Virus record (IMG/VR): IMGVR_UViG_3300045135_001998
Coordinates: 1 to 22,427 of that record
Length of the DNA stretch: 22,427 bases
Direction: 5' to 3' (one strand)
From: a virus
In this document: positions 2,959-21,171 of the stretch, piece after piece
Layout: every line of letters starts with the position of its first letter
Numbering within the stretch: the first letter of the stretch is position 1
Position numbers and translations under genes: made by a program
Notes under the pieces: model-generated
Told to the model about the DNA's origin: nothing
The model's input: the letters and a program-made list of their open reading frames with translations, nothing else
The model's database searches: none

Positions 2959-3882
2959 ATGATAGATTTTTTACAACGTGCAGCTGATATGTATTATCAA
3001 GGTACTCCGATTATTTCGGATGCTGAGTTTGATGCTTTAGCTGATAGATATGCTTTCAAAGATGTGGGTCACCGCATTACTGATGGTATTCCACACTTGT
3101 ATAAAATGTATTCATTGCAGAAGTGTTTTGACATTAATGAAGCTCCTCTGGAGTTGAATTCTTGTGTTATAACACCAAAGCTCGATGGTGCAGCAGTGTC
3201 AATTCTTTATGTAAATGGAGAACTGGCACTTGCACTTACTCGTGGAGACGGTAATATCGGTCGTGATATTACTGACAAGATTGCTACGCTAGTGCCTACT
3301 AGTATCAATATTCTTGGTACTGTTCAGATTACTGGCGAAGTAGTTTGTCCATCACGCGTTCCCAATGCTCGAAATGTCGCAGCGGGGTCATTAAACTTGA
3401 AAGACTTTGACGAGTTTCATGCTCGCCCACTGACTTTCGTAGCTTACGATATTCAAGGAGCCGACTACGGCACTTGGACTTCGGCCATGAATGTGTTGTC
3501 ACAGCAGGGTTTCTCTGTTGTAACTTCCTTTGATGCTTCGGAGTATCCAACCGATGGTTTGGTATATCGAATTGACTCCTATGCGGCTTTTCAGCATATG
3601 GGATATACTGCTCACCATCCACGCGGCGCATTTGCTCTGAAAGAGCAGAAAGCTGGCGTAGTTACTAAATTACTCGGCGTGGAATGGCAAGTAGGTAAAA
3701 GCGGCGTAGTGAGCCCTGTAGCAATACTTGAACCAGTTCTGGTTGGAGATGCTACAGTATCTCGTGCAACGCTTCACAATATTGAATACATACAAAATCT
3801 GAATCTGGAGATTGGATGTATGGTGGAAATTATTAGGAGCGGGGAGATTATACCTCGAATTTTAAGACGTGTATCTGAATAG
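2959..3882 (+). CDS. ligA: NAD+-dependent DNA ligase, catalytic subunit (Ia, adenylation and OB domains)
   Basis: The 307-residue protein carries the N-terminal two thirds of a LigA-type ligase. Domain Ia is about residues 4-31 (YYQGTPIISDAEFDALADR). The adenylation domain has nucleophile K74 in KLDG, TRGDGNIGRDIT (94-105), GEVV with E127, NARNVAAGS (136-144), DGLVYRI (199-205) and ALK with K228. The OB fold runs from about 236 to the end (VEWQVGKSGVVSPVAILEPV, then EIIRSGEIIP). It should use NAD+ to adenylate K74 and seal nicks. The zinc-finger, HhH and BRCT parts are missing here and lie in the next gene. ATG 2959 has GGGAG at 2949-2953. The in-frame GTG 2947 is only about 7 nt from the predicted transcription start and is rejected. 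T5 ligase is similarly split. Confidence 0.93.
   Translation: MIDFLQRAADMYYQGTPIISDAEFDALADRYAFKDVGHRITDGIPHLYKMYSLQKCFDINEAPLELNSCVITPKLDGAAVSILYVNGELALALTRGDGNIGRDITDKIATLVPTSINILGTVQITGEVVCPSRVPNARNVAAGSLNLKDFDEFHARPLTFVAYDIQGADYGTWTSAMNVLSQQGFSVVTSFDASEYPTDGLVYRIDSYAAFQHMGYTAHHPRGAFALKEQKAGVVTKLLGVEWQVGKSGVVSPVAILEPVLVGDATVSRATLHNIEYIQNLNLEIGCMVEIIRSGEIIPRILRRVSE
3381..3389 (+). repeat. AGCGGGGTC motif, copy within ligA
   Basis: Exact AGCGGGGTC in codons for Ala-Ala-Gly-Ser. One of four exact 9-mers on the + strand (others at 6993, 15849 and 18572). Candidate site-specific nick or other DNA-level signal; the function is inference. Confidence 0.5.
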
Positions 3883-3905
3883 GTATACCATTAAAAAAAT
3901 AGTTC

Positions 3906-3934
3906 TTGACTTTTACCTTAATTTTTCATATAAT
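3906..3934 (+). promoter_or_regulatory. Sigma70-type promoter, copy 3 (ligase second subunit)
   Basis: TTGACT (3906-3911) and TATAAT (3929-3934) have a 17-bp spacer. AAAAAAATAGTTC lies upstream and ATACATTC downstream. It lies in the 79-nt gap between the two ligase genes, so the subunits can be expressed separately. Predicted start is near 3941. A small GGTATACC palindrome at 3882-3889 precedes it. Confidence 0.9.
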
Positions 3935-3961
3935 ATACATTCAAATTCAGAGGAACGATAA

Positions 3962-4717
3962 ATGACTGCAATCCAAGCCCCAACACACTGCCCCAGCTGT
4001 GAGTCGGAACTTGTATGGGTCAATCACCTTCTGTACTGTAAAAGCGCGTCCTGCGGTTCACAGTCACAGAAAAAACTGGAGCACTTTGCAAAGACTCTCA
4101 AAATTAAGGGTCTTGGCCCAAGTTCTATTCAGAAACTGGGTATTTCCGATATAGATCAGATCTATGCTCTGTCTGTAGAAGAAATTGCAGAGTGCCTCTC
4201 TTCTGAAAAACTCGCAGAGAAACTCTACGCAGAGATTCTGAATTCCATTTCAGCACCTCTTAACTTAGTGTTGCCTGCATTTAGTATTCCGTTGATTGGG
4301 AAAACAGCCACTGAAAAGCTCTCAAAAGTTTGTAATGACATTACAGATATAACCGAAGAAACTTGTGAGAAAGCAGGGCTCGGCCCCAAAGCAACAGAAA
4401 ACCTACTCAATTGGTTAGCTACGGAGTTTTACTCCTTCTATGACGGGCTTCTACCATTTGATTTAAAGTTTGCTAAAACTGCTAGTGTTGCATCTACAGG
4501 AACTGTATGTATTAGCGGCAAATTGAAGAGCTTCAAAACAAAAGCCGAAGCTACTACAGCTCTAAAAGCCAAGGGCTTTGATGTAAAGAGTAGTTTAACA
4601 AAAGATGTGACGATTTTAATCAACGAGAGTGGTATTGAATCGTCCAAAACACAAAAAGCCAGAGAGTCTGGCGTAACTATAGTTACTAATTTAATTCAAT
4701 TCTTGGAGAATTTATAA
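3962..4717 (+). CDS. ligB: NAD+-dependent DNA ligase, second subunit (zinc finger, HhH, BRCT)
   Basis: The 251-residue protein supplies the C-terminal part of a LigA ligase. A Cys4 zinc finger uses C10, C13, C26 and C31 (HCPSC ... YCKSASC). Tandem helix-hairpin-helix segments follow (IKGLGPSSIQKLGI about 48-61, SIPLIGKTATEKL about 107-119, and GLGPKATENLL). A BRCT domain covers about 176-251 (GTVCISGKLKSFKTKAEATT through VTIVTNLIQFLENL). It lacks any adenylation motif, so it should bind DNA and complete the enzyme made with the preceding gene product. The start has AGAGGA about 8 nt upstream. Its stop overlaps the next start (TAATG), coupling it to the D5-like gene. The symbol follows T5 usage and does not mean E. 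coli LigB. Confidence 0.9.
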   Translation: MTAIQAPTHCPSCESELVWVNHLLYCKSASCGSQSQKKLEHFAKTLKIKGLGPSSIQKLGISDIDQIYALSVEEIAECLSSEKLAEKLYAEILNSISAPLNLVLPAFSIPLIGKTATEKLSKVCNDITDITEETCEKAGLGPKATENLLNWLATEFYSFYDGLLPFDLKFAKTASVASTGTVCISGKLKSFKTKAEATTALKAKGFDVKSSLTKDVTILINESGIESSKTQKARESGVTIVTNLIQFLENL

Positions 4718-5439
4718 TGGCATTACCAAAGTGGACTGAAGAGCGCACAGCTGCTCTTACCTCATTCGTAGGCGATGAGTCGCCTATCTCTCAAGCAACT
4801 GTAGCAGAAGCTGCAGACCAACTTGAGACTTCTACTCGCTCAGTTTCTAGCAAATTGCGAAAAATGGGCTATGAAGTAGAACTCGCTTCTACTGCTGGAG
4901 GTAAAGGTTTTACCGAAGCACAGGAAGCAACCTTGGCTTCTTTTGTCTCTGACAACAGTGGTCAATATACTTACGCTCAAATTGCTGAGCACTTTGAAGG
5001 CGGCGCATTCTCTGCGAAGCAAATCCAAGGTAAGATTCTTTCTATGGAACTTACTGGCCATGTAGCCCCTGCTCCTAAAACAGAAGCAGTACGTACTTAC
5101 AGCGAAGCTGAAGAAGCTCAGTTTGTAAAAATGGTTAAGGATGGAGCTTTCGTAGAGCAGATCGCTGAAGCAATGGGTCGCTCTGTAAATTCTGTTCGTG
5201 GTAAAGCGTTGAGCTTGCTTCGTTCGGGCGATATTGATGCGATTCCTCGTCAAGAGCACACTAAAGGCTCCGACAAGTCAGATCCTTTGGAAGGCGTAGA
5301 TGTACCGTCTATGACTGTAGAAGCTATCGCTGAAGCTATTGGCAAAACTGCTCGCGGTGTTAAAACCATGCTAACTCGTCGTGGCTTATCTGCCGCTGAC
5401 TATGATGGTGCGGCAAAAGCAGCTAAAGCTGCTCAGTAA
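4717..5439 (+). CDS. D5-like abundant DNA-binding protein with repeated winged-helix motifs
   Basis: The 240-residue protein is built from about four HTH or Myb-like repeats. These are residues 1-50 (KWTEERTAALTSFVGDESP ... SSKLRKMGYEV), 63-108 (FTEAQEATLASFVSDNSG ... IQGKILSMELTG), 126-170 (YSEAEEAQFVKMV ... NSVRGKALSLLRSG) and about 195-230 (TVEAIAEAIGKTARGVKTML). It closely matches what I remember of T5 D5, an abundant DNA-binding protein needed for replication and for control of early and late transcription; no database check was possible. All its arginine codons are CGN, while several neighbours use AGA/AGG freely, suggesting high expression. The start overlaps the ligase stop, with GGAG at 4705-4708. 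A stem-loop follows it. Confidence 0.78.
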   Translation: MALPKWTEERTAALTSFVGDESPISQATVAEAADQLETSTRSVSSKLRKMGYEVELASTAGGKGFTEAQEATLASFVSDNSGQYTYAQIAEHFEGGAFSAKQIQGKILSMELTGHVAPAPKTEAVRTYSEAEEAQFVKMVKDGAFVEQIAEAMGRSVNSVRGKALSLLRSGDIDAIPRQEHTKGSDKSDPLEGVDVPSMTVEAIAEAIGKTARGVKTMLTRRGLSAADYDGAAKAAKAAQ

Positions 5440-5460
5440 GAAATTTACGTAAGTAATACG

Positions 5461-5491
5461 TCCCACGCCTCTGCCTAGTGTACGCGTGGGA
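5461..5491 (+). terminator. Stem-loop after the D5-like gene
   Basis: TCCCACGC (5461-5468) pairs perfectly with GCGTGGGA (5484-5491) around a 15-nt loop beginning CTCTGCC. The downstream run is only TTTCATG, so it is an imperfect intrinsic terminator. It may be an attenuator or 3' stabiliser that still lets some RNA continue into the helicase gene 21 nt away. Confidence 0.6.
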
Positions 5492-5511
5492 TTTCATGTT
5501 CGGGGGAACTT

Positions 5512-6861
5512 TTGAATATAGCAAGTGCTTTGATAAAGCAGGTACTATCTCTACGCGACTTTGAAACGTGGAGTTACTTGCGCAAAGAATATCTGCCTGT
5601 AGAGTATCACACTCTGCACAAGATAATCGACAAGCACTGCGAAAAATATCATGAGCTTCCCACGTTCGATGATCTCAAGCTCGAAATTCGACATGCACAG
5701 ACTCAAGAAAAAGTTTTTGCAATCGAAGCAGTAGATATTGACATTGATGCTTTTACCCTACTGCAGTATCTTAAAAATGAGTATACTCAACGAGAGATAC
5801 TAAACTCGCTTGAAGATTATATTGATAATTCTGTTCTGTTTGCAGACGCAGAAGAATCAGTAGGTCAATTACATCAGATTGTCCTAGACATTGAAGATAA
5901 AGTTGATCTAGAAGTTCCTACAGAGAGTATGCAACGTATTACTCTGTTTGAGCCAGAGGAAGAGATTGGTAAGTACGTTGGTCTCGGTTTGAATACCGAG
6001 TACGATCACGAGATCAAGTTCTCCCCCCGAGACTTGGTACTTGTGGGAGGTCGCCGAGGTGCTGGTAAATCTCTGACTTGTGCAAACATTGCTAACAGTG
6101 TGTTTGAGTCTGGTCGTTCGGCTATTTACTTTACTATTGAGATGGATAGCCGATCGATCCTTCAACGTATTTGTTCGATTGCTACAGGAGTACCTTACTC
6201 TCGTTTGCGCACTAAAAATCTTAGTGTTACTGAGTGGGAAAAAGTTGCTGGATGGTGGGCTAACCGCTTTCAGCAGGGCCAAGAGCGTTTAAAAGAATAC
6301 CGAGAGCACAGAAACTTTGAAGAGTTCCATCATAATTTAACTACCAAGCATGAGCTTCTCCCGACTCAACAGCTTGATGTTATTTATGATCCTAGTTTAA
6401 CTCTTGCGAAGATTCGTGCAGAATTGGATAAGAAAGTTAAGACTATCAATCCAGGTATTATTATTGTTGACTATATCAACCAGGTTAAACGCTCTAACCT
6501 ACCTTCTCGCGGAGGACAGTATGATTGGACTGAACAGATCGAAGTTAGTAAAGCACTAAAGGCTATGGCACAGGAGTACGAATGTACTATCTTCTCGCCA
6601 TACCAAACTGACGCTACTGGCGAAGCACGTTTCGCAAAGGGTATTCTTGATGCAGCTGACGCGGCTTACGCGCTAGAGACCTGGGATCAAGAAGACGCTT
6701 GCATGACATTTAATTGTGTTAAAATGCGCTCTGCCAGTATGCGCTCTTTCACCTCTACTGTAGACTGGGAAACTCTTAAGATTGGCCCTGATACAGCACT
6801 GACGCCGAAAGAAAAAGAGTCATCGTCACATAAAACCGGCGAAGAAATAGATGACCTTTAA
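5512..6861 (+). CDS. DnaB-like replicative DNA helicase
   Basis: The 449-residue protein has a RecA-like ATPase core. Walker A is GGRRGAGKS with K186, and Walker B is GIIIVDYIN with D320. A later PYQTDATGEARFAKGILDAAD segment matches the DnaB H3/H4 area. Residues 1-150 form a helical N-terminal domain resembling the DnaB primase-interacting region. It should unwind DNA 5'-3' ahead of the family-A polymerase as a hexamer and work with the primase at 7473. Start is TTG 5512, preceded by GGGGGA at 5502-5507; no ATG or GTG lies closer in frame. No promoter is visible in the 72 nt upstream, so transcription probably reads through the stem-loop. The acidic tail (GEEIDDL) may contact partners. Confidence 0.9.
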   Translation: MNIASALIKQVLSLRDFETWSYLRKEYLPVEYHTLHKIIDKHCEKYHELPTFDDLKLEIRHAQTQEKVFAIEAVDIDIDAFTLLQYLKNEYTQREILNSLEDYIDNSVLFADAEESVGQLHQIVLDIEDKVDLEVPTESMQRITLFEPEEEIGKYVGLGLNTEYDHEIKFSPRDLVLVGGRRGAGKSLTCANIANSVFESGRSAIYFTIEMDSRSILQRICSIATGVPYSRLRTKNLSVTEWEKVAGWWANRFQQGQERLKEYREHRNFEEFHHNLTTKHELLPTQQLDVIYDPSLTLAKIRAELDKKVKTINPGIIIVDYINQVKRSNLPSRGGQYDWTEQIEVSKALKAMAQEYECTIFSPYQTDATGEARFAKGILDAADAAYALETWDQEDACMTFNCVKMRSASMRSFTSTVDWETLKIGPDTALTPKEKESSSHKTGEEIDDL

Positions 6862-6873
6862 TAAAAATAGTTC

Positions 6874-6902
6874 TTGACACTCTCATCATTTTTGGGTATA
6901 AT
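6874..6902 (+). promoter_or_regulatory. Sigma70-type promoter, copy 4
   Basis: TTGACA (6874-6879) and TATAAT (6897-6902) have a 17-bp spacer. AAAAATAGTTC lies upstream and ATATGTTC downstream. It starts the run of two small genes, primase and polymerase. Predicted start is near 6909, with a leader of about 26 nt before ATG 6935. Confidence 0.9.
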
Positions 6903-6934
6903 ATATGTTCTGAAAGTGATGGGAGTATTTTTTT

Positions 6935-7225
6935 ATGGGAATGTTTTACGGTAGTCTTAGTCATACTTATTCTGGTCGCAAGAAAAAGCAGCAGCGGGGT
7001 CGTAAAAATACTTACAAGCCTGCGTTTCGCCCTCTACAATCTACAGATACTTATCGTAGAGAGACACCAGAGTACAAATCTGCAGAAATTACTACAGCAG
7101 TTACACATAAAGTAGAAGAAGATTTTCGTAAAACAGTATCACAAAAATATACAGTCGCACCTGCCTATAACAAGGGTGCATATCAAGTAATCAGCAGAGA
7201 AAACGTAAAGGATATTGGAAGATGA
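6935..7225 (+). CDS. Small basic protein, unknown function
   Basis: The 96-residue product is strongly basic at its N-terminus, with GRKKKQQRGRKNTYK at about residues 14-28 after MGMFYGSLSHTYS. It is predicted to be mostly extended or disordered, with no membrane segment. A role in nucleic-acid binding is possible from the charge but not shown. The start at ATG 6935 follows GGGAG at 6921-6925. It is the first gene after promoter copy 4 and its stop overlaps the next start (ATGA), in an operon leading into primase and polymerase. I do not recognise a family. Confidence 0.65.
   Translation: MGMFYGSLSHTYSGRKKKQQRGRKNTYKPAFRPLQSTDTYRRETPEYKSAEITTAVTHKVEEDFRKTVSQKYTVAPAYNKGAYQVISRENVKDIGR
6993..7001 (+). 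repeat. AGCGGGGTC motif, copy within small basic gene
   Basis: Exact AGCGGGGTC read here as part of codons CAG-CGG-GGT-CGT, a different phase from the ligase copy. This argues the word is conserved at DNA rather than protein level. Preceded by GCAGC, as is the copy at 15849. Confidence 0.5.
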
Positions 7226-7473
7226 AGGAACAGCTCAACATTAAAATTCAGGGATACTTTGATATACTCGAAGCCGCCCTTGAAGTAGAAGATGTAGAAA
7301 AAGCTGAGATATTTATTGGAAAATTGTCAAAGTATTTTCATTTATTTGATGACGAGTTGACAGATTACTACCAATATGCACAAGACGTTGTAGACTCATA
7401 CTGGGCAGAAGACTCCTACTATGAAGAACCTACAGAATTAGATGAATGGCTTGATTTTGATCCGGACTGTTAA
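7222..7473 (+). CDS. Small acidic protein, unknown function
   Basis: This 83-residue protein is very acidic and helical (KIQGYFDILEAALEVEDVEK, then YYQYAQDVVDSYWAEDSYYE), ending DEWLDFDPDC. It follows the basic protein with a 4-nt ATGA overlap, and its stop TAA shares its last base with the primase ATG. Expression is therefore probably translationally coupled on both sides. A basic and an acidic small protein made side by side could bind each other, but that is inference from charge only. GGAAG at about 7216-7220 may serve as the ribosome binding site. No family recognised. Confidence 0.65.
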   Translation: MKEQLNIKIQGYFDILEAALEVEDVEKAEIFIGKLSKYFHLFDDELTDYYQYAQDVVDSYWAEDSYYEEPTELDEWLDFDPDC

Positions 7474-8306
7474 TGAACGTAGAAGATTTATTACGAAGCA
7501 AAGACATAAAGTATATACCAAAGGGAGCAGATTTTGTAATTAGCTGCCTTAATCCTGAACACCCTGATCGTAATCCAAGTATGCGAGTAGATCAGGTTAC
7601 TGGCATTTTTAACTGTTTTTCCTGCGAATTTAAAGGCAATCTGTTTACGCACTTTGGGGAAAAGGCAAACCAACTACAATTACGCAGACAGTTATTGAAG
7701 AAGAAAATTGGAGAGAAACGTGCCGAAAGTATTGGTTTGTCTTTTCCCGAAGGTGTGCTACCTTATGTAGGAAACTGGAGAGAAATTCGCCCAGAGACTT
7801 ACAAAAACTTTGAAGCGTTTATTCATACCGGAAAAGAGTATATCAGTCGTATTAACTTTCCTATTCGAGATCGAACTGGAAAAATACGAGCATTTGTAGG
7901 CAGACATACTTCAGCGGGTATTCCAAAGTACTTAAATAGCCCTCCAGGTGCAAAACTGCCTCTTTACCCAACAGTACAGCCCTATCAAGGCTCAATTATT
8001 CTAGTAGAAGGTATATTTGATATGCTCAATCTACACGATAAAGGGCTTGAGAATGTTATGTGCTGTTTTGGAGTAAAAAATGTAGACGAAGAAAAGCTCA
8101 GTATTCTTGCAATGCAGGGCGCGGATAATATAGATATATTTTTAGATAATGATGAAGCAGGGCAGAAAGGCTCTGAAAGAATTAAAGAACTGTGCGAGAA
8201 AGTTGGTCTCACTAGCCGAACCATCAAGTTTGGAAACAAACAGCAAGATGCCGGTGCACTTACAAAAACTCAAGTACAAAAACTGAAAGGAAAATTATAT
8301 GGCTAG
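7473..8306 (+). CDS. DNA primase (zinc finger plus TOPRIM)
   Basis: The 277-residue protein has a CHC2-type zinc ribbon with C25, H30, C48 and C51 (CLNPEH ... FNCFSC). A TOPRIM domain follows, with E179 in IILVEGIFD and the D225-N-D227 pair in IFLDNDEAG, which should bind catalytic metal. This is the layout of DnaG-type primases without the C-terminal helicase-binding domain. It should lay RNA primers for lagging-strand synthesis with the DnaB-like helicase encoded at 5512. The start at ATG 7473 overlaps the preceding stop; the ribosome binding site is weak, consistent with coupled translation. Its stop lies inside the polymerase gene start (8-nt overlap). Confidence 0.9.
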   Translation: MNVEDLLRSKDIKYIPKGADFVISCLNPEHPDRNPSMRVDQVTGIFNCFSCEFKGNLFTHFGEKANQLQLRRQLLKKKIGEKRAESIGLSFPEGVLPYVGNWREIRPETYKNFEAFIHTGKEYISRINFPIRDRTGKIRAFVGRHTSAGIPKYLNSPPGAKLPLYPTVQPYQGSIILVEGIFDMLNLHDKGLENVMCCFGVKNVDEEKLSILAMQGADNIDIFLDNDEAGQKGSERIKELCEKVGLTSRTIKFGNKQQDAGALTKTQVQKLKGKLYG

Positions 8307-11053: not shown

Positions 11054-11061
11054 GAGGTATT

Positions 11062-11721
11062 ATGGCTAAGCGTTCAAAAACACTAGCTGGAGCTAATTTA
11101 GATCTACAACCAATCGAACCATTAACTCAGAATCAATTAAAAGCATTTGAAAGTGAAAAGCACTTAGTTCTTCACGGGGTCGCAGGAACTGGAAAAACCT
11201 ATATTTCTTGCTACCTTGCATTTGATGATATGGTAAAGGGGTACTATGATAAGTTAGTTATTATTCGGAGTGCCGTCTCTACACGAGATATTGGATTTCT
11301 TCCAGGAAACGAGTCTGAGAAGGCTTCTGTTTACGAAGAACCTTATAAAGATATTTGTATTGAGTTATTCCAAAGAGGCGACGCCTACAGTCTTTTAAAG
11401 GCTAAAGGCTTAGTTCATTTTATGACTACTTCTTTTATTCGCGGAGTAACTCTCAGAAATGCTACGATTATAGTAGACGAGTGTCAGAACATGTCATTCC
11501 ATGAGCTAGACTCTATTATTACCAGAATCGGAGAAGGATGCAGAGTAATTTTTTGTGGAGACTTCCGACAGGCAGATCTTGCAAAAAATGGGCTACGAGA
11601 CTTTATTCGAGTATTAAAAGCAATGGATTCTTTCGATCTAATAGACTTTGAAATAAAAGATATTGTTCGAAGTGAGTTTGTAAAAGAATATATTATCGCC
11701 AAAACGGATCTTGGATTTTGA
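11062..11721 (+). CDS. PhoH-like ATPase
   Basis: The 219-residue protein is a PhoH-family P-loop ATPase. Walker A is GVAGTGKT with K45, preceded by the Q-motif-like LTQNQLKAF. KLVIIRSAVSTRDIGFLPG (84-102) is the typical PhoH segment. Walker B is TIIVDECQN with D139 and E140, and CGDFRQADL is the sensor region. PhoH-like proteins are widespread in phages and thought to be RNA- or nucleic-acid-dependent helicases or ATPases. AGAGG lies 6-10 nt before ATG 11062. The stop overlaps the TTG start of the D10-like helicase. The Walker A codons contain ACGGGGTC (11174-11181), a variant of the window's repeated G-rich word. Confidence 0.88.
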   Translation: MAKRSKTLAGANLDLQPIEPLTQNQLKAFESEKHLVLHGVAGTGKTYISCYLAFDDMVKGYYDKLVIIRSAVSTRDIGFLPGNESEKASVYEEPYKDICIELFQRGDAYSLLKAKGLVHFMTTSFIRGVTLRNATIIVDECQNMSFHELDSIITRIGEGCRVIFCGDFRQADLAKNGLRDFIRVLKAMDSFDLIDFEIKDIVRSEFVKEYIIAKTDLGF

Positions 11722-13001
11722 AAGCAGTCATAAGTAACAGAATTTATCTTGAATGCACGAGAGAGTATAGGGAGTTTTTGTCTAAAGAACTTACCTATAC
11801 AATACCGGCGCGGGGTCCCAACGAAGCGCCACAGGTTATTAAAAATATGCAACGTGTTCGAGAGAATTTGGTTACTATACCTATCGGAAGAATGGATCTA
11901 ATTCCTGATGACTACGAAATAGTAGATAAACGTATTCATGTGCCAGTAGACTTTCCTCAGTTTAAGTTCCCTCTCCGAGAAAGCCAACAAGCGGTATATG
12001 ACGAACTCGATGATAATTGTATTATTAACGCTTGGGTCAGTTGGGGCAAAACTTTTACAGGTTTAGCAATCGCAGGAAAGCTTGGGCAGAAAACACTTGT
12101 TGTAACTCATACAACTTCACTGAGAGATCAGTGGGCAAAAGAAGTGCAAAAAGTCTATGGAATTACGCCTGGTATTATAGGAAGCGGTAAATTTAATATT
12201 GATGCTCCAATCGTAATTGGGAATACTCAGACTTTATACCGTAATATTCCGAAGATAAGAAAAGAGTTTGGAACTATTATACTCGATGAAATGCATCACG
12301 TATCTAGCCCTACTTTTTCTAAAATTTTAGATACAAATTACTGTAGATATAAGATCGGATTATCAGGCACTGTAGAAAGAAAAGACGGCAAACATGTCGT
12401 GTTTAAAGATTACTTTAGTAGTAAACTTTTTAAACCGCCCCGAGAAAACTTTATGACTCCTACAATCGAGATACTTCGTTCAGAAGTGCGATTTATGGAT
12501 GGTGCGAGCGTTCCTTGGGCGAAACGAATCAATGCGCTAGCAAATAATGACGAATATCGTCACACAGTAGCCATGCTTGCAGCGGCCTACGCCGCAAAAG
12601 GGCACAAGGTACTTGTGGTGTCAGATCGAGTTCACTTTTTGAAAAGCTGCGCCGAACTGACAGGTGAAAAAGCCGTGTGTGTTACAGGCGAGGTCGCGCA
12701 CGAGGAAAGAGAAAAGCTTGTGAATGAAATACTCTACGGAGATAAGAATGTTCTTTACGGAACGCAAGCAATTTTCAGCGAAGGTATAAGCGTAAATAGC
12801 CTTAGCTGCCTAATACTAGGCACCCCTATCAATAACGAGCCTCTTCTCACTCAGCTAATTGGCCGAGTTATACGTAAGCAAGAAGGCAAGCGAGACCCAG
12901 TAGTAATTGACATACATTTAAAAGGCAAAACAGCACAGAGACAGGCTTCTAACAGAATGGGATATTATATGAAACAAGGCTATCAAATACGACAGCTTTA
13001 A
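11718..13001 (+). CDS. SF2 DNA helicase, T5 D10 / T4 UvsW-like
   Basis: The 427-residue protein has an N-terminal region (1-80), then two RecA-like domains. Motif I is AWVSWGKT with K111, where Ala replaces the first Gly of the P-loop but the GKT is intact. Motif Ia is VVTHTTSLRDQW, motif II is LDEMHH with D190 and E191, and motif III is GLSGT. Domain 2 holds KVLVVSDRVHFLKSC, IFSEGIS and motif VI QLIGRVIRK. T5 D10 and T4 UvsW are branch-migration helicases that process forks and recombination intermediates, which suits the neighbouring recombination genes. Start TTG 11718 overlaps the PhoH stop (TTGA), so translation is probably coupled. Confidence 0.9.
   Translation: MKAVISNRIYLECTREYREFLSKELTYTIPARGPNEAPQVIKNMQRVRENLVTIPIGRMDLIPDDYEIVDKRIHVPVDFPQFKFPLRESQQAVYDELDDNCIINAWVSWGKTFTGLAIAGKLGQKTLVVTHTTSLRDQWAKEVQKVYGITPGIIGSGKFNIDAPIVIGNTQTLYRNIPKIRKEFGTIILDEMHHVSSPTFSKILDTNYCRYKIGLSGTVERKDGKHVVFKDYFSSKLFKPPRENFMTPTIEILRSEVRFMDGASVPWAKRINALANNDEYRHTVAMLAAAYAAKGHKVLVVSDRVHFLKSCAELTGEKAVCVTGEVAHEEREKLVNEILYGDKNVLYGTQAIFSEGISVNSLSCLILGTPINNEPLLTQLIGRVIRKQEGKRDPVVIDIHLKGKTAQRQASNRMGYYMKQGYQIRQL
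11810..11817 (+). repeat. GCGGGGTC motif, copy within D10-like helicase gene
   Basis: Exact 8-mer GCGGGGTC preceded by C rather than A. It is read as GCG-CGG-GGT-CCC (Ala-Arg-Gly-Pro), again in a different codon phase from the ligase copy. Confidence 0.45.
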
Positions 13002-13012
13002 AAAAATATTTC

Positions 13013-13041
13013 TTGACATTAATTGAATTTTTTGGTATAAT
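13013..13041 (+). promoter_or_regulatory. Sigma70-type promoter, copy 5
   Basis: TTGACA (13013-13018) and TATAAT (13036-13041) have a 17-bp spacer. AAAAAAATATTTC lies upstream and ATATGCTC downstream. Unlike the other copies it sits on top of the next start codon: predicted transcription start is near 13048, while the open frame begins at 13044. Confidence 0.88.
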
Positions 13042-13043
13042 AT

Positions 13044-13445
13044 ATGCTCTTGTATGATTGGAAGAAGATATTTGAACTGACGGAAGGAACTCCTTCGGAC
13101 ATAGTTCTTGTGTTGCGAATGATGACTGAAAGTCTTATTCCAAAGAATAAATATGATCCGATATATAAGTACTATCTCAAAGACTTTATAGGTAGTTCTT
13201 TTATCGCCCATCCAGATGTTTTACTTTTTAATCGCTACAAGCACACAAACAGTGAAATTGCACAGTATATGGCATTAGCCTCTTTGAGATCTCTTGCTGA
13301 TTACTATGCAAATCACACTGTTACACTAGACTTACTTCACTGTCCAGTGGAGAGAGAACTTTTTAACAACAACAGTCTACTTCATATTGACGAAGATGAT
13401 AAATTACATTTTCTATATGAAGAAGTCCCTACGGAGAAACACTAA
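13044..13445 (+). CDS. Unknown protein with a start codon at the promoter
   Basis: The 133-residue frame starts MLLYDWKKIFELTEGTPSDI and includes HPDVLLFNRYKHTNSEIAQYMALASLRSLADYY, which reads as a real helical protein; I do not recognise it. It lies where T5 has its D11-region genes, just before the SSB and SbcCD genes. ATG 13044 is only 3 nt after the -10 box of promoter copy 5 and upstream of the predicted transcription start. From that promoter the usable start would be TTG 13050, giving an almost leaderless message, or translation depends on readthrough RNA from the helicase gene. No Shine-Dalgarno precedes either codon. The C-terminal end is 1 nt from the SSB ATG. Confidence 0.68.
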   Translation: MLLYDWKKIFELTEGTPSDIVLVLRMMTESLIPKNKYDPIYKYYLKDFIGSSFIAHPDVLLFNRYKHTNSEIAQYMALASLRSLADYYANHTVTLDLLHCPVERELFNNNSLLHIDEDDKLHFLYEEVPTEKH

Positions 13446-13446
13446 T

Positions 13447-14076
13447 ATGGCACTATCATTTAACAAATCAAAGGGCGCTGCCCAAAAATCTTCGATCAAC
13501 ACCTACGCTTATCAAGAAGGAGACAACTCAGTTCGCTTAGTTGGTGATATTCTTGCGCGTTACGTTTACTGGATTGAAGGTAAAAACGGTAAGAACATTC
13601 CCTTTGAGTGCTTATCTTTTGACCGCAATGAAGAGCGTTTTAATAACCTAGAGAAAGATTGGGTTCGTGAATACTACCCAGACTTAAAATGCGGTTGGAG
13701 CTACGCAATGCAGTGCATTCATAACGGCGAAATCAAAGTACTTAACCTGAAGAAAAAATTATTCGAGCAAATTCTTACAGCTGCTGAAGATCTTGGTGAT
13801 CCTACAGATCCAGAAACTGGCTGGGATGTAAAATTTAAGCGAGTAAAAACTGGCCCACTAGCCTACAATGTAGAGTACCAGTTGCAAGTACTAAAATGCA
13901 AACCTCGCGCATTAGACGATGATGAGATGGAGCTTGTAGCTAATCTTAAGTCTATGGATGATGTTATGCCGCGTCCTACGCCAGATGCACAGAAAAAATT
14001 GCTTGACGAGATTCGTGAAGAATCTGCAGGTGATATTGATGAAGAAGCCCTTGAAGAAGAGTTTAACATCGGATGA
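13447..14076 (+). CDS. Single-stranded DNA-binding protein
   Basis: The 209-residue protein has a basic N-terminus, a central OB-like region (VRLVGDILARYVYWIEGKNG, then CLSFDRNEERFNNLEKDW and YYPDLKCGWSYAMQCIHNGE), and a strongly acidic tail ending EEALEEEFNIG. This is the plan of phage SSBs of the gp32/gp2.5 kind, in which the acidic tail recruits replication and recombination proteins. Position directly ahead of SbcD supports it. GGAG at 13434-13437 fixes ATG 13447; an upstream in-frame ATG at 13387 would run over the previous gene and is rejected. Arginine codons are all CGN, as in the D5-like gene, consistent with high expression. Confidence 0.76.
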   Translation: MALSFNKSKGAAQKSSINTYAYQEGDNSVRLVGDILARYVYWIEGKNGKNIPFECLSFDRNEERFNNLEKDWVREYYPDLKCGWSYAMQCIHNGEIKVLNLKKKLFEQILTAAEDLGDPTDPETGWDVKFKRVKTGPLAYNVEYQLQVLKCKPRALDDDEMELVANLKSMDDVMPRPTPDAQKKLLDEIREESAGDIDEEALEEEFNIG

Positions 14077-15032
14077 TTCTGTTTACAGCAGACTGGCACA
14101 TAAAACTGGGACAGAAAAATGTCCCAGTTGCTTGGGCATTAAATCGCTATAATCTATTTTTTGAGCAGATCTACGAGCTAGAGAAGCAGTGCAATATGCA
14201 TATTATAGGTGGCGATTTATTTGACCGGCTTCCGAATATGGAAGAGTTAGAGCTTTATTTTTCGTTTATTCGAAGAGTAAAGATTCCAACAATTATATTC
14301 GATGGTAATCATGAAGCAACAAAAAAGAATAAAACCTTCTTTACGCAATTAAAGCAGGTTTCTCGGGATATTAATCCCTTGATACAAGTAGTAGATATTT
14401 CATTTATTGATGAAGATTTTGGATTTGGTATACTACCTTATGCAGACTTGCATAAGAAAGGCAGCATAGAACACTTTGATACTAGCAAGCCTTTATTTAC
14501 TCATGTTCGTGGCGAAATTCCTCCACACGTCAAGCCAGAGGTGGACTTAGATAGGTTTGAGGATTTTCCTGTAGTTTTTGCAGGAGACCTTCATGCACAT
14601 AGTAATACACAGCGTAATATCGTATATCCAGGAAGCCCTATGACTACTTCATTTCACCGAAATGAGGTCTCAACGGGGTATCTACTAATCAATCCAAACG
14701 ATTGGAGTTGGAGATGGGATCCTTTTGATCTTCCTCAGCTAATTCGTAAAACTGTACGAAGTACTACAGAGATGATACCTACAGAGTACCATCACACAAT
14801 CTACGAAATAGAAGGAGATATTCAAGAACTTGCAGAGGTAAAAAATAGCGAGCTTCTTGATAAAAAAGTAGTAAGACGAAGTTCAGAAGCTACTTTAGTG
14901 ATTGAAAAGGATATGAGTATTCAAGAAGAGTTAGCAGAGTATTTAACTTATATTCTTGAAATAAACGAAGAGAAAATACCTGAGATTATAGGATTATTTA
15001 ATGATTACGCTTCAAAAGTTGAAATGGAGTAA
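14073..15032 (+). CDS. SbcD/Mre11-like recombination nuclease subunit (T4 gp47, T5 D12 type)
   Basis: The 319-residue protein is a calcineurin-like metallophosphoesterase. It has D7-x-H9 in ADWH, GGDLFDR with D48 and D51, GNHE with N79 and H80, a THVRG histidine and GDLHAH (171-176) as the last metal ligands. With the ATPase encoded next it should form the SbcCD/Mre11-Rad50-type complex that opens hairpins, resects ends and supports recombination-dependent replication. ATG 14073 overlaps the SSB stop by 4 nt and the 3' end overlaps SbcC by 32 nt, pointing to stoichiometric co-expression. Confidence 0.92.
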   Translation: MILFTADWHIKLGQKNVPVAWALNRYNLFFEQIYELEKQCNMHIIGGDLFDRLPNMEELELYFSFIRRVKIPTIIFDGNHEATKKNKTFFTQLKQVSRDINPLIQVVDISFIDEDFGFGILPYADLHKKGSIEHFDTSKPLFTHVRGEIPPHVKPEVDLDRFEDFPVVFAGDLHAHSNTQRNIVYPGSPMTTSFHRNEVSTGYLLINPNDWSWRWDPFDLPQLIRKTVRSTTEMIPTEYHHTIYEIEGDIQELAEVKNSELLDKKVVRRSSEATLVIEKDMSIQEELAEYLTYILEINEEKIPEIIGLFNDYASKVEME

Positions 15033-16800
15033 CTGTTTTAGCTATGGTGCGGATAATGAGCTAGACCTCACAGAGAGTACCCTAACTCAGATAATCGGAA
15101 CTAACGGTATGGGCAAGTCGTCTATACCGTTAATTATTGAAGAAGCACTATACAACAAGAACTCTAAAGGAATTAAGAAAGCAGATATACCAAATCGTTA
15201 TGTAAATAATGGATATAGTATTTTTCTGTCTTTCTCAAAAGACCAAGATCAGTATGAAGTAATTATTGATCGTAAAAGCAGTATAAAACTTACTCTCACT
15301 AAAAATGGCGAAGATATTAGTAGTCATACTGCTACAAATACCTATAAGACTATACAAGAAATTATTGGTATTGACTTCAAGACATTTACTCAGCTAGTAT
15401 ATCAAAATACAAACACTAGCCTTCAGTTTTTAACTGCAACTGATACAAACCGTAAGAAGTTTTTAATTGATTTATTACATTTAGAAAACTATGTAAAATT
15501 ATTTGAACTCTTTAAGGAAGAGAGCAGACAGAGTAACCTCAATCTTAGCTCTATTTCTTCTAAGATCTCAACGATTGAAAAATGGTTATCAGATAATAAA
15601 TTGAGTGATACTACCATACTTCCTCCAGTAAAATTTACAATTAATACGGAAGATGACGAGAAAGAACTCCGTTCTCTTATGGTAGAAATTCAAAATATTT
15701 CTGAAAAAAATAAAAAAATCTCTACAAATAATACTTATAGAGATATGCTGAGTAAGATAAATCTACAGGAAATTCAGGAATTATCTTCCTACGAGAAAAA
15801 ATCTTACGATTCTTTACAGTCAGAGCTAGGAAGTTTAGAACAAGCAGCAGCGGGGTCTCAACGACTTCTCACAAAGCTACGCAAATTAGGAGACCACTGC
15901 CCTACTTGTGAGCAATCTGTGGATGCTTCTTTTAAACAGAGCTTGATTGATACAGAAGAGGAGAAATTAAAGGAGGCAGAAGAACGAAATGCTGCTATTC
16001 GAGAAGAAATTGAACGAATTAAAGAACAAAATAGAAAGCACGAACGCGGGACAAAACTTCAAGGAGAATGGGAAAATCTTTACAGAAGCATTGACTCAAG
16101 CCTTCCCTCAAGCATCTTGGATAAAAACGAGCTTGAGGAACGCGCAAGACGAGTTCGTGATGAGCTGGAACGAGCAAAAAGCAAACTGGCAGAGGTCACA
16201 GCAGAGAATGAAAAAAGAGCGCGGAGAAACACCCGAATCGAAGTAATTCTTGAGCAGACTGAAGAGTTTCAGAAAAATCTTGAAGAAGCTACACAACTTC
16301 TAAAAGCTGAGCAAGAGATTGCATCAAATTTAGAAGTATTGAAAAAAGCTTTTAGTACGAATGGACTGATCGCATATAAAATTGAAAACTTAGTTGGAGA
16401 GCTTGAAGAGCTTACAAATGCTTATCTTGGAGAGCTTTCTGATGGCCGCTTTACGCTTGAATTTGTAGTATCTAATGACAAACTCAACGTACAAGTAACT
16501 GATAACGGAAATATTGTTGATATTCTTGCGCTTTCTTCAGGAGAGTTAGCAAGAGTAAATACTGCTACACTAATTGCAATTCGTAAGTTAATGAGTAGTA
16601 TTTCAAAATCAAGAATTAATATACTCTTCCTAGATGAAGTAATTAATGTTCTTGATGAAGGCGGGCGTGAAAAGCTAGTAGAAGTTTTATTGGGAGAAGA
16701 AGAGCTAAACACTTATATCGTTTCCCACGGCTGGACACATCCATTGTTGAATAAAGTAGAAGTTGTTAAAGACGAAAACTTAAGCAGACTGGAGCACTAA
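15001..16800 (+). CDS. SbcC/Rad50-like recombination ATPase (T4 gp46, T5 D13 type)
   Basis: The 599-residue SMC-like ATPase has an N-terminal Walker A, GTNGMGKSS with K39. Two long charged coiled-coil arms (about 160-290 and 310-450) flank a zinc hook CPTC with C300 and C303. The C-terminal ABC half carries signature LSSGELARVN (511-520) and Walker B ILFLDEVINVLDEGG with D545 and E546, then a D-loop. The arms are short compared with bacterial SbcC (over 1000 residues) but usual for phage versions. It pairs with the nuclease encoded immediately upstream. The last stop overlaps a 51-codon gene start (TAATG). Confidence 0.92.
   Translation: MITLQKLKWSNCFSYGADNELDLTESTLTQIIGTNGMGKSSIPLIIEEALYNKNSKGIKKADIPNRYVNNGYSIFLSFSKDQDQYEVIIDRKSSIKLTLTKNGEDISSHTATNTYKTIQEIIGIDFKTFTQLVYQNTNTSLQFLTATDTNRKKFLIDLLHLENYVKLFELFKEESRQSNLNLSSISSKISTIEKWLSDNKLSDTTILPPVKFTINTEDDEKELRSLMVEIQNISEKNKKISTNNTYRDMLSKINLQEIQELSSYEKKSYDSLQSELGSLEQAAAGSQRLLTKLRKLGDHCPTCEQSVDASFKQSLIDTEEEKLKEAEERNAAIREEIERIKEQNRKHERGTKLQGEWENLYRSIDSSLPSSILDKNELEERARRVRDELERAKSKLAEVTAENEKRARRNTRIEVILEQTEEFQKNLEEATQLLKAEQEIASNLEVLKKAFSTNGLIAYKIENLVGELEELTNAYLGELSDGRFTLEFVVSNDKLNVQVTDNGNIVDILALSSGELARVNTATLIAIRKLMSSISKSRINILFLDEVINVLDEGGREKLVEVLLGEEELNTYIVSHGWTHPLLNKVEVVKDENLSRLEH
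15849..15857 (+). repeat. AGCGGGGTC motif, copy within SbcC-like gene
   Basis: Exact AGCGGGGTC, coding Ala-Ala-Gly-Ser inside a coiled-coil arm, where a Gly-Ser pair is not otherwise expected. It is preceded by GCAGC, as at 6993. Confidence 0.5.
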
Positions 16801-16955
16801 TGAGAGCAACAAACCGACTATCCGCACAGCGTAGAATATTCGAGTTACAGAAAGCAGTAAAACAAGAAATGAAAGAGGCTATTAGCCAAGCATCAGAAGA
16901 TAATTCTGAGACGCCAAAAGAAGTATATGGTAGACAGCAGAGCAAAAGGAGCTAG
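16800..16955 (+). CDS. 51-residue basic helical protein, unknown
   Basis: A short frame starts at ATG 16800, overlapping the SbcC stop by one base, with TGGAG at 16790-16794 as ribosome binding site. It ends at TAG 16953-16955, 29 nt inside the resolvase gene. The product (MRATNRLSAQRRIFELQKAV ...) is basic and probably alpha-helical, with RLSAQRRIFELQKAVKQEMK giving a charged amphipathic helix. Coding is supported by the start signal, and it fills what would otherwise be a 126-nt gap in a gap-free operon. Function is unknown; it could assist SbcCD or the resolvase. Confidence 0.6.
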   Translation: MRATNRLSAQRRIFELQKAVKQEMKEAISQASEDNSETPKEVYGRQQSKRS

Positions 16956-17373
16956 AGGAGAGTATTTAGTACGAGACATGCTTCGTGAATCTACAGGCTA
17001 TCAATTTGAGCGCGTTCCAAATTCGGGCGCGCTTGAATATCTCAAGGGAGACCTGTATGTTCCAAATGAAAGAAATCGTTTTTGTATTGAGGTAAAAAGC
17101 TACGCAGACTCTCCTTTTAATGATAGTTTATTTACAGCACCAAAAACAAATAACCTGATTCGATGGTGGAAAAAGATTGTATTACAAGCAGAAGGCGGAA
17201 ACCAGGAGCCTTTGTTGTTTTTTAAATATAACCGGTCAAAAGTGTTTGTAGTAACACGAGAATTTCCAGAAAGTACGGATCAATACATTTTTATTAACTT
17301 TCTCAACTGCTATGTGCTAGTAGCCGAAGATTGGTTGGAAAGTGAGAAACCGGAGTTTTTAAATGGCGTTTAA
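16927..17373 (+). CDS. Hjc-like Holliday junction resolvase (PD-(D/E)XK)
   Basis: The 148-residue protein carries the archaeal-Hjc-like pattern. E12 lies in SRAKGARGEYLVRDML, D42 in the strand YLKGDLYV, and E55-V-K57 in CIEVKS. An arginine-rich N-terminus and VPNSGALEY precede the strand. The length and the SRAKGxRGE opening fit Holliday-junction or branched-DNA resolvases of phages better than restriction enzymes. Its location between SbcC and the flap endonuclease supports resolution of recombination intermediates. AAAGAAG lies just before ATG 16927, and the stop overlaps the flap endonuclease start by 11 nt. Exact substrate is inferred from family. Confidence 0.8.
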   Translation: MVDSRAKGARGEYLVRDMLRESTGYQFERVPNSGALEYLKGDLYVPNERNRFCIEVKSYADSPFNDSLFTAPKTNNLIRWWKKIVLQAEGGNQEPLLFFKYNRSKVFVVTREFPESTDQYIFINFLNCYVLVAEDWLESEKPEFLNGV

Positions 17374-18202
17374 TTTTACTGATAAAATAGTAAATGAAAC
17401 CTCAAACTCTACATTAATTGTTGATGCTTTAAACCTAGCGTTTCGCTGGAAGCATCAAGGTCGTACAGATTTTCGTTACGACTTTCAGCGTACTGTTGAA
17501 AGTCTAGCGAAGTCTTATGACTGCGAAAGGCTGATTATTGCAGCAGATTGGGGAAGTTCTTCCTATAGAAAAGAAATATGTCCTGACTATAAGCAGAACA
17601 GAAAAGATAAGTTTGCAGAGCAGACTGAAGAAGAAAAAATTGCTTTTGAAGAGTTCTTTGAAGAGTTTGAAGCCTCTCTCGAATTACTTGCAGAAGATTA
17701 TTTAGTTCTTCGCTACAAAGGTGTAGAGGCTGACGATATTGCAGCTCATCTTGTAAAAGAAAAAGAGAAGTATGATTTAGAGTATATTTGGCTAATCTCA
17801 AGCGACCGAGACTGGGATTTGCTAATTCAGGAGAATGTAGGAAGATTTTCTTATGTTACTCGAAAAGAAGTAAGACTTGATAACTGGAGGGAGCACTATA
17901 ATGTAAGCCCAGAAGAGTATATTTCTCTCAAGTGTCTTACAGGCGATAAAGGCGATAATGTACCGGGTATTCCAGGTATTGGCCCAAAACGAGCAGAGCA
18001 GCTTATAAAGGAATACGGTAGTGCAATGGATATTTATGATGTGCTACCCATTAGTAGTAAGTATAAGTACGTACAAGAGCTGAATGCAAATGCAGAGCAG
18101 CTTCTTTTAAACTACGAGCTTATGGATTTAATAGCATATTGCGATGAAGCAATAGGGGCCGAAAACTTGGCTGATATTGAAAGGAAGATGAATGGAAGTT
18201 AA
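17363..18202 (+). CDS. 5'-3' exonuclease / flap endonuclease (T5 D15-like)
   Basis: The 279-residue protein matches T5 D15 closely in outline. Metal-binding acids are D21 in IVDALN, E122, D124 and D125 in GVEADD, D148 and D150 in SSDRDWD, and D195 and D198 in GDKGDN. The helical arch region is KQNRKDKFAEQTEEEK. The helix-hairpin-helix is VPGIPGIGPKRAEQL. It should remove RNA primers and cut 5' flaps, a job the polymerase cannot do because it lacks this domain. CGGAG about 8 nt before ATG 17363 supports the start. It overlaps the resolvase gene upstream and NrdA downstream, so all three are likely on one message. Confidence 0.94.
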   Translation: MAFNFTDKIVNETSNSTLIVDALNLAFRWKHQGRTDFRYDFQRTVESLAKSYDCERLIIAADWGSSSYRKEICPDYKQNRKDKFAEQTEEEKIAFEEFFEEFEASLELLAEDYLVLRYKGVEADDIAAHLVKEKEKYDLEYIWLISSDRDWDLLIQENVGRFSYVTRKEVRLDNWREHYNVSPEEYISLKCLTGDKGDNVPGIPGIGPKRAEQLIKEYGSAMDIYDVLPISSKYKYVQELNANAEQLLLNYELMDLIAYCDEAIGAENLADIERKMNGS

Positions 18203-19967
18203 TATTGATCTAAGACGCGACAGATACCTATCAGAGTTCAGCATTAAAACTCTACGAGATCGTTATATGGTAGAGGGAGAGTCTTCTCCCCAACAAGCAT
18301 TTGCACGCGCTGCAAAAGCCTTCGCAGATGACGAAGCACACGCACAGAGGCTATACGACTATGCTAGTAAACTATGGTTTATGTTCTCCACCCCAATTCT
18401 TTCTAATGGTGGCACAAGCAGAGGCCTTCCTATTAGCTGTTTTCTTAATTATGTGGACGATTCAAGAAAAGGGCTCACCGACCACTACACTGAAAATGCT
18501 TTTCTTAGCAGTGTCGGGGGTGGTATTGGCGGTTCTTGGAATGATGTGCGATCAGTAGGCAGTAAAACCTCAGCGGGGTCAGAGAGTACTGGAGTAATTC
18601 CCTTTTTGAAAGTAGTTGATGCAGAGATGTTAGCATTCTCGCAAGGCGTTACACGGAGAGGCAGTTATGCAGCATATTTGGACATATCTCATCCAGAAGT
18701 GGAAGAGTTTTTGGATATACGTAAGCCTACGGGTGGCGATATTAACCGCAAGTCTACTAACCTACACCACGGCATCGTTCTTTCTGACGAATTTATGGAG
18801 TTGATTGAGCGATGCACAGTTGAAGAAGGAGTAGATGACTCGTGGGATTTAGTAGACCCGCATAGTAAGAAAGTTACAAAAACTGTTTCAGCAAAAGCAC
18901 TTTGGGTAAAACTTATTCAAAATCGTGTTGAAACTGGCGAACCTTATATTATGTTTGGCGATACTGTGCAAGCAGGGCTACCAGATTGCCAGAAAGATCT
19001 GGGACTAGTTGCACGACAGTCAAATCTCTGTAGTGAGATTACGCTACCGACAAACGAAGAACGTACAGCAGTATGCTGTTTATCAAGTGTAAACCTAGAA
19101 GAATATGACGAATGGTGTGAAAACCCTAACTTTATTCCTGATCTAGTAAGAATGCTTGATAACGTACTTACTTACTTTATACGAAATGCTCCGTCACAGC
19201 TTGAAAAAGCAAGATTTAGTGCAGAGCGAGAACGAAGTATCGGATTGGGGGCCATGGGATTTCATGCTTACTTACAGAGACACCTTATTCCTTTTGAGAG
19301 TGCGATTGCAAAAAGTCGTAATATGGCTATGTTTAAGCATATTAAATCTAGCGCAGTTAAAGCCTCAAAGCAACTCGCTGCAGAGCGGGGCGAAGCACCT
19401 GATGCAATCGGTACTGGAATGCGTAATTGCCATCTTTTGGCTATTGCTCCTAATGCTAGTAGCAGTATTATCTGTGGCAATACTTCCCCTAGTATTGAGC
19501 CATATCGAGCTAATGCGTATGCACAAAAAACTAAAAGTGGTACTAGCCTCCAGAAAAACGAGTACTTAGAAGCAATTCTTCAAGACTTGGAAATGGATAC
19601 TGATGAAGTTTGGAGAAGTATTGTAACAAACGGAGGAAGTGTACAACACCTTGATTTCTTGGATGAGTACACAAAAGATGTATTTAAAACTGCAGTAGAG
19701 ATTGATCAGCGTTGGGTAATTGATCTTGCCGCGGATCGACAAAAAGAAATTTGTCAGAGTCAGTCTCTGAACGTATTTTTTCCTGCGAACGTATCAAAGC
19801 AGGAATTGCATGCAGTACATATGATGGCGTGGAAAAAGAAAGTAAAAACTCTGTATTATTTACGTAGTGAAGCCTATAAAAGAGCTGAAAATGTATCTGA
19901 TGCAGTATTAAGACAAATGGTCGTTGAAAGTACAGACGAAGGCGCGTGTTTAGCGTGTGAGGGCTAA
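18192..19967 (+). CDS. nrdA: Class Ia ribonucleotide reductase, large subunit
   Basis: The 591-residue protein keeps the catalytic set: C83 in ISCFLN, N278, C280 and E282 in SNLCSEI, C295 in CCLSSVNL, the Tyr pair Y555/Y556 in LYYLRSEA, and a C-terminal redox pair C586/C589 in ACLACEG. It reduces NDPs with the small subunit encoded next. It is much shorter than E. coli NrdA (about 760), and the first catalytic Cys is at 83 rather than about 225. The N-terminal ATP-cone, where dATP normally inhibits activity, is therefore missing. AAGGAAG at 18181-18187 precedes ATG 18192, overlapping the flap nuclease gene by 11 nt. Confidence 0.95.
   Translation: MEVNIDLRRDRYLSEFSIKTLRDRYMVEGESSPQQAFARAAKAFADDEAHAQRLYDYASKLWFMFSTPILSNGGTSRGLPISCFLNYVDDSRKGLTDHYTENAFLSSVGGGIGGSWNDVRSVGSKTSAGSESTGVIPFLKVVDAEMLAFSQGVTRRGSYAAYLDISHPEVEEFLDIRKPTGGDINRKSTNLHHGIVLSDEFMELIERCTVEEGVDDSWDLVDPHSKKVTKTVSAKALWVKLIQNRVETGEPYIMFGDTVQAGLPDCQKDLGLVARQSNLCSEITLPTNEERTAVCCLSSVNLEEYDEWCENPNFIPDLVRMLDNVLTYFIRNAPSQLEKARFSAERERSIGLGAMGFHAYLQRHLIPFESAIAKSRNMAMFKHIKSSAVKASKQLAAERGEAPDAIGTGMRNCHLLAIAPNASSSIICGNTSPSIEPYRANAYAQKTKSGTSLQKNEYLEAILQDLEMDTDEVWRSIVTNGGSVQHLDFLDEYTKDVFKTAVEIDQRWVIDLAADRQKEICQSQSLNVFFPANVSKQELHAVHMMAWKKKVKTLYYLRSEAYKRAENVSDAVLRQMVVESTDEGACLACEG
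18572..18580 (+). repeat. AGCGGGGTC motif, copy within nrdA
   Basis: Exact AGCGGGGTC, coding Ser-Ala-Gly-Ser-Glu, on the + strand like all other copies. Confidence 0.5.
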
Positions 19968-20942: not shown

Positions 20943-21161
20943 ATGGAAACAAAAGAAAAACAAGTAGTAACAATTGATGAAAAAGAATATGAAGTAGAGG
21001 CTCTTTCGGATACAGCAAGATATTGTCTAAATCAGCTTCAAGCAATTAGACAAGACGCTGTAGCTAAAAGAACAGAAATAGATAGACTAGAAATGGCTAT
21101 TCGAGGATTCAATTTAGTACTGAGAGAAGAGTTAGATAAAATTGATAAAGGGGCTGAATAG
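20943..21161 (+). CDS. Small coiled-coil protein, DUF6447-like
   Basis: The 72-residue product opens with a beta-hairpin-like VTIDEKEYEVEALSDTARYC followed by a single long heptad-rich helix (LNQLQAIRQDAVAKRTEIDR through LREELDKIDKG). This resembles a family of small phage proteins (DUF6447, by memory) with no established function. AAGGAA lies 7 nt before ATG 20943. It is the last rightward gene; its final codons lie inside the bidirectional terminator. Having a terminator embedded in its 3' end suggests it closes the NrdAB transcript. Confidence 0.72.
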   Translation: METKEKQVVTIDEKEYEVEALSDTARYCLNQLQAIRQDAVAKRTEIDRLEMAIRGFNLVLREELDKIDKGAE

Positions 21162-21171
21162 CCCCTTTTTT
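21147..21171. terminator. Bidirectional intrinsic terminator between convergent genes
   Basis: AAAGGGGCT (21147-21155), a GAAT loop, then AGCCCCTTT (21160-21168) and a T-run to 21171. The A-run on the left gives a T-run on the other strand, so it can stop transcripts from both directions. The arms contain the stop codons of both flanking genes or abut them. Confidence 0.92.

Follow-up and report, generated by a model that had tools for sequence, protein, structure and literature searches.

We analysed a window of 22,427 bp, the complete IMG/VR record IMGVR_UViG_3300045135_001998, and a short word that it carries, GCGGGGTC. The word has the core CGGGGT, with G preferred over A before it and C preferred over T after it. 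We read it as a polar, Chi-like DNA signal of one clade of phages, recognized by a phage-encoded reader for which the D10 helicase is the best candidate. The probability of this reading is, in our judgement, about 0.4. The group that bears the word consists of T5-like phages that are uncultured and for the most part marine. Most polar recognition words have been described in bacterial chromosomes. This one appears in a phage clade, with a tens-fold excess and a two-arm polarity.

The window presents GCGGGGTC five times on the + strand (3382, 6994, 11810, 15850 and 18573) and never on the - strand. A previous sequence-only reading had reported these copies, a leading A in four of them (AGCGGGGTC), and nine CGGGGT on + with none on -. 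Our recount gave exactly the same figures, and the close variants that it named at 673, 11174 and 14673 are present. The copies and variants are the following.

673..681, + strand: variant AGCGGGGTA in the D2-like gene; the final A is 2-fold enriched in relatives.
3381..3389, + strand: AGCGGGGTC in ligA, codons GCG GGG TCA, the A-G-S of NVAAGSLNL; same place in 22/52 relatives.
6993..7001, + strand: AGCGGGGTC in the small gene 6935-7225, in another phase, CAG CGG GGT CGT; 2/41 orthologues.
11174..11181, + strand: variant ACGGGGTC, within the PhoH-like gene; relatives have an 11-fold excess of ACGGGGTC.
11810..11817, + strand: GCGGGGTC in the D10 helicase gene, GCG CGG GGT CCC; 2/128 orthologues.
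14673..14680, + strand: variant ACGGGGTA in D12; as single changes, an A is tolerated at position 1 and likewise at position 8.
15849..15857, + strand: AGCGGGGTC in D13 (SbcC/Rad50-like), with the zinc hook CPTC 16 codons downstream; 75/163 relatives carry an exact copy within D13.
18572..18580, + strand: AGCGGGGTC in nrdA, at S-A-G-S-E-S; same place in 38/120 relatives.

Markov models of order 1-3 predict 0.03-0.07 copies of GCGGGGTC in the window (p ~1e-8 to 2e-10). Under the same models, it ranks first among all window 8-mers. Synonymous-codon shuffles give a mean of 0.03 copies when pooled and 0.05 within genes. None of the 4000 reaches five. A later coding test, made genome by genome, found 5 copies against 0.04 expected in the window (p 8e-10). 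The word was picked after inspection, so replication in other genomes outweighs the p-value of the window.

As the window is the whole record, the replication counts were taken from relatives. We assigned its genes from the map of open reading frames (ORFs), protein comparison and gene order against T5. They include the T5 D-region genes D2, D3, the split NAD ligase, D5, helicase, primase, polymerase, PhoH and D10. They also include a single-stranded DNA-binding-like protein, D12, D13, a D15-like nuclease and NrdA/B. No phage record matches the window at the DNA level, and its polymerase is at most ~45% identical to that of cultured Demerecviridae. IMG/VR is rich in relatives with 74-95% identical proteins.

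The word replicates in these relatives. Their first 1.0 Mb shows it in a 51:0 ratio by strand. Deduplicated coding sequence (1.94 Mb) holds 147 sense copies, against ~4 expected from within-gene synonymous shuffles; antisense copies are at background (6 against 4.0 expected). All three codon phases are enriched, with 113, 18 and 16 sense copies for 2.35, 0.88 and 0.63 expected. Kinship inflates the raw count of 147, so the sites were clustered by homology. After clustering, 36 distinct homologous sense sites remain (17/9/10 by phase), against 6 antisense.

The excess is also present within single genomes. The coding test gave 11 copies against 0.21 expected in G003, 7 against 0.22 in G030, 7 against 0.19 in G031, 6 against 0.09 in G009 and 5 against 0.11 in G046. 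The last is a near relative of G003, although kinship is irrelevant within single-genome tests. The word is the top-ranked 8-mer in the window, G003, G009 and G007. A scan of the pooled relatives, blind to the word, found for it the strongest excess among all 8-mers. Some relatives (G002, G010, G018 and G020) do not carry it. Genes limited to the contigs that have the word gave weak candidates only, as the contigs are partial. In ten cultured Demerecviridae or related records, T5 among them, the word occurs 0-2 times each.

We compared all single changes of the word. Substitutions at position 1 are still enriched (A 11-fold, T 4-fold, C 3-fold), as are those at position 8 (T 4-fold, A 2-fold). 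Any change within CGGGGT abolishes the enrichment or nearly so. A sharp recognition site of ~8 bp is implied. A T7-type primase site, for which a core GGGTC or GTC would be sufficient, was considered and rejected. GGGTC is contained in the word, but alone it is only 1.24-fold enriched, and the word requires the C of CGGGGT. GAGGGGTC, GTGGGGTC and GGGGGGTC are not enriched.

The sequence-only reading also held that the copies fall in at least two codon phases and that no common protein motif accounts for them. Both claims are sustained. The window has two phases (GCG-GGG-TCN three times and xxG-CGG-GGT-C twice) and the relatives have all three. The Markov ranking, the codon-aware nulls and the 36 sites in three phases rule out chance, a protein motif and codon bias. 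A broader version of this alternative is that the word is a by-product of codon choice, of conserved A-G-S motifs or of an mRNA element. About half of the distinct sites do encode A-G-S (17/36, phase 0), and the genes concerned also conserve their codons at many further positions. Against it stand the same nulls and phases, and the lack of a structural context: RNA structure at 108 coding sites does not differ from codon-matched nulls. The orientation of the word in inverted genes, described below, argues in the same direction. We consider this alternative scarcely credible.

Word positions recur across relatives in ligA, nrdA and, above all, D13; the other sites vary among genomes. The D13 word is often doubled with an 11-bp period, in two reading frames. 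This doublet and one nrdA pair are the only arrays of the word, tandem or inverted. Codons elsewhere in ligA, D13 and nrdA are conserved to a similar degree, so we do not count the conservation of these sites as proof.

On long contigs, the first impression was that the word follows the gene strand (60/66). We then located longer left arms through their PPK2- and MazG-like genes. The word lies on one strand across the left arm and the D-block (replication), and on the opposite strand across the structural block. In G003, G029, G030, G031 and G005, the strand changes from the D-block arm to the structural arm. The polarities diverge in a promoter-dense zone, rich in noncoding DNA, on the D side of PPK2, where copies occur in both orientations. 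They converge just past nrdB, at the nrdB/structural junction, whose equivalent in the window is at ~21.17 kb.

21161..21170, no strand: junction between the replication arm (+) and the start of the structural block (-), from the ORF map; word polarities converge here in relatives.

The divergence zone is possibly an early control region or an origin. It spans 15000-18200 of contig L426 (G031), has equivalents in G030, G045, G016 and G019, and presents strong divergent -35/-10 sites.

Genes inverted with respect to their arm separate the effect of the arm from that of the gene. For [AG]CGGGGTC, the inverted genes of the left arm have 0 sense and 5 antisense copies. Co-oriented genes have sense to antisense ratios of 58:2 in the D-arm and 36:3 in the structural arm. 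The difference between inverted and co-oriented genes is significant (Fisher p 2.5e-6; 2.4e-5 when one probable homologue is left out). In the same inverted genes, other G-rich words taken as controls keep to the gene (GGTGG 20:6, GCTGG 12:7, GAGGT 23:11), and the skew at fourfold sites is unchanged. For these two reasons, a base-composition skew is excluded as the cause. Since the orientation follows the arm even in inverted left-arm genes, the data point to a polar signal at the DNA level, which is neither an RNA, a codon nor a transcription signal. The word uses one strand per arm and keeps to the arm in inverted genes, so it is most likely read on DNA by a process sensitive to arm direction: replication, recombination, end processing or translocation.

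The same result bears on a stoperator-like role, in which an asymmetric site oriented with transcription would serve a phage repressor or an elongation-blocking factor. Mycobacteriophage stoperators are dispersed, asymmetric and transcription-oriented, with 20-30 per genome (PMC6550527). Those of cluster A resemble the word in being asymmetric dispersed sites with one orientation per genome arm. They differ in being 13-14 bp long, repressor-bound and transcription-oriented (PMC6550527), whereas the word ignores transcription in inverted genes, where it is antisense. A few copies adjoin early promoters of related contigs. However, the association is not general, as few of the 547 promoter-like sites have the word nearby. 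We know of no repressor for these phages. This role seems very unlikely to us.

The two arms, which point at one convergence zone, also recall the FtsK orienting polar sequences (KOPS) and other architecture-imparting polar words, with their opposite strand preference in each arm. The word could likewise direct a DNA motor to the convergence point, be it for packaging, ejection or segregation. Nevertheless, packaging is unidirectional and has no obvious need for two arms. The word also differs from KOPS in its place, a phage genome, and in its few copies per genome. To our knowledge, these phages have no FtsK-like translocase, although we made no search for one. A motor guide is, in our view, distinctly improbable.

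The sequence-only reading had proposed a diverged version of the T5 nick consensus. One part of this hypothesis stands: the signal is real, strand-biased, acts at the DNA level and replicates in relatives. The diverged T5 consensus is not supported. The major nicks of T5 are one-stranded and have another sequence, while the word switches strand between arms. The consensus that it gave, RGCGCGGTG, is missing at the annotated T5 nicks: four of them have AGCGCAGGG, and one has GGCGCGGGC. The published consensus is R/GCGCRGG (PMC3517423), and the T5 annotation reads NPu pGCGCN. All the annotated major nicks lie on the minus strand, in the left arm, the D-block and the terminal repeats. Within T5, sites of this type lie on both strands and show no over-representation. 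AGCGGGGTC does not contain GCGC, and T5 does not contain GCGGGGTC. A search of T5 for an equivalent polar word gave nothing beyond noise; the T5 repeats found during this search cluster at its injection-stop region.

A phage nickase could still cut the replicating or the virion DNA at the word, in the manner known from T5, phiKMV-like phages and tf. It would use another word and a strand that differs by arm, and might be the HNH protein encoded between terminase and portal, a T5.153 homologue. In KKP_3711 this HNH is annotated as 'nicking endonuclease', and homologues lie beside TerL/portal in G001, G003, G004, G006, G011 and G017. The tf nick words are asymmetric, dispersed and one-stranded (PMC3517423). 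The word and the T5 major interruptions share a T5-like phage, a dispersed asymmetric G-rich site and one copy in D13. In T5 and KKP_3711, whose D13 proteins are 51% identical, the T5-type site is 40 codons upstream of the zinc hook (T5 78574). However, relative to the zinc hook, it lies on the opposite strand and ~70 nt apart from the word described here. Moreover, no two-arm strand use was found in the nick systems of T5, phiKMV-like phages and tf (PMC3517423); T5 keeps to one strand throughout, and its own nick word shows no excess. The HNH is also present in the word-less G002, and its nickase role rests on one annotation. Such a nick is unlikely, though we keep it among the alternatives to be weighed. 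As a caution, a strand-biased word in a T5-like phage need not be a nick site.

The HNH gene between TerL and portal (T5.153 family) is conserved across the clade and is found at 43001-43432 of PP579741 and at 105346-105783 of T5. It is a plausible candidate for the T5 nickase.

The word fits better with Chi. Chi and KOPS words show over-representation, sharp asymmetry and an arm-level polarity that ignores gene direction. Chi (GCTGGTGG in E. coli, read by RecBCD; AddAB reads the analogues) is, like the word, short, G-rich and asymmetric, with dispersed coding copies in all frames, over-representation and large-scale polarity. Here, the over-represented element is an asymmetric octamer. Its polarity, which for Chi goes with the direction of replication, appears to follow the arm and not the gene strand (5/5 words in inverted genes). 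The excess is far above the ~2.3-fold of Chi in E. coli (PMC3784561). Unlike Chi, the word is clade-specific in phages, and the candidate hosts tested show no enrichment of it.

This last point counts against the host Chi, in which the phage carries the octamer of the host RecBCD/AddAB to survive or exploit the host nuclease. In its favour, the word shares with Chi the length of eight letters, the asymmetry, the richness in G, the dispersal and the polarity, and lambdoid phages without recombinases over-represent Chi (PMC3784561). Metagenome-assembled genome (MAG) bins with close relatives belong to Halieaceae and Porticoccaceae, plus one Bacteroidetes bin; the binning of a lytic phage is weak host evidence, and the true host is uncertain. 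In the MAGs that hold close relatives, the word is not enriched (59 against 48 for the control in G026, 24 against 30 in G027), and the coding test in the candidate host gave 2 copies against 4.0. Among 143 genomes of the class of the first MAG, the ratio to control peaked at 2.0, in a genome whose coding test gave 28 against 20, which is no clear enrichment. An apparent strand segregation of the word in two bacterial genomes vanished on a fuller listing. The phage also has its own D12-D13. We judge the host Chi quite unlikely.

The reader of the Chi-like signal is probably encoded by the phage, since the possible host MAGs tested show no excess of the word and the class survey no clear one. 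Two candidates are located in the window.

11718..13001, + strand: D10 homologue, candidate reader, 47% identical to T5 D10 over 430 aa; phrog_16 DNA helicase.
14073..16800, + strand: D12-D13 recombination nuclease pair, second candidate reader; D13 is 34% identical to T5 D13, and D12 is assigned by gene order.

In T5, the base sequence determines the polarity with which D10 unwinds branched DNA (PMC5180179). The authors of that study proposed that the sequence is sensed in cis, so that branch migration pauses or ends, and likened this to Chi and RuvC hotspots (PMC5180179). From this sequence-dependent polar unwinding, and from the 47% identity of the window homologue, D10 would be the best single candidate, with D12-D13 second. 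An enzyme that meets the word in one orientation would be paused or redirected. Forks or breaks could thus be handled directionally between the origin- or end-like zone of the left arm and the nrdB/structural junction. The T5 D10 study established no recognition word (PMC5180179), and GCGGGGTC is a concrete word to test. A bolder version is a Chi-like code proper to the clade, in which D10 itself would sense the polar octamer. The code would give the genome two directional arms for the processing of forks or breaks, and perhaps a mark of self DNA against that of the host. We hold this version to be rather doubtful.

Several points weigh against a Chi-like signal read by D10. On a linear map of the simplest kind, the words are directed from the ends inward, whereas E. 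coli Chi would have to face the other way to stop an enzyme that enters from an end. We infer the link of any protein to the word, and word-less relatives also have the D region. The test on inverted genes rests on 4-5 sites, with arm limits set by hand and contigs assembled from metagenomes. A base skew of the replication type was looked for and none was seen. At ligA, D13 and nrdA, inherited codons may account for part of the conservation.

Other words were found at or near these sites. A second word, [GA]CGGGTGC(G), lies at or near the [GA]CGGGGTC positions of other relatives, in the D10 codons around NLQRVRE and in D13 near the zinc hook. It may be either a variant site or conserved codons. 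GCGGGTGC occupies the same D13 position in some relatives; it was rejected as an allelic second word, since a small number of conserved protein positions accounts for most of it. Likewise, ATTACGCT corresponds to conserved codons at the start of D13 and in nrdA.

Beyond the junction, the window encodes at 21478-22374 (- strand) a coiled-coil protein with internal repeats of ~90 aa, at the start of the structural block and with little similarity to relatives. The left arms of relatives contain PPK2-like, MazG/PRA-PH-like and IscU-like genes (G003 65981-66592, G003 70852-71232 and G009 17516-17896), which are unusual auxiliary genes for T5-like phages. Finally, a hairpin is present between the D5-like gene and the helicase gene (window 5440-5511), without the word. 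The same hairpin in several relatives holds TCTACGGGGTC or AGCGGGGTC in its loop, with a stem of variable sequence (L046 3382, L048 5264, L060 2333, L078 2548, L083 7446, G007 12244 and L324 3617).

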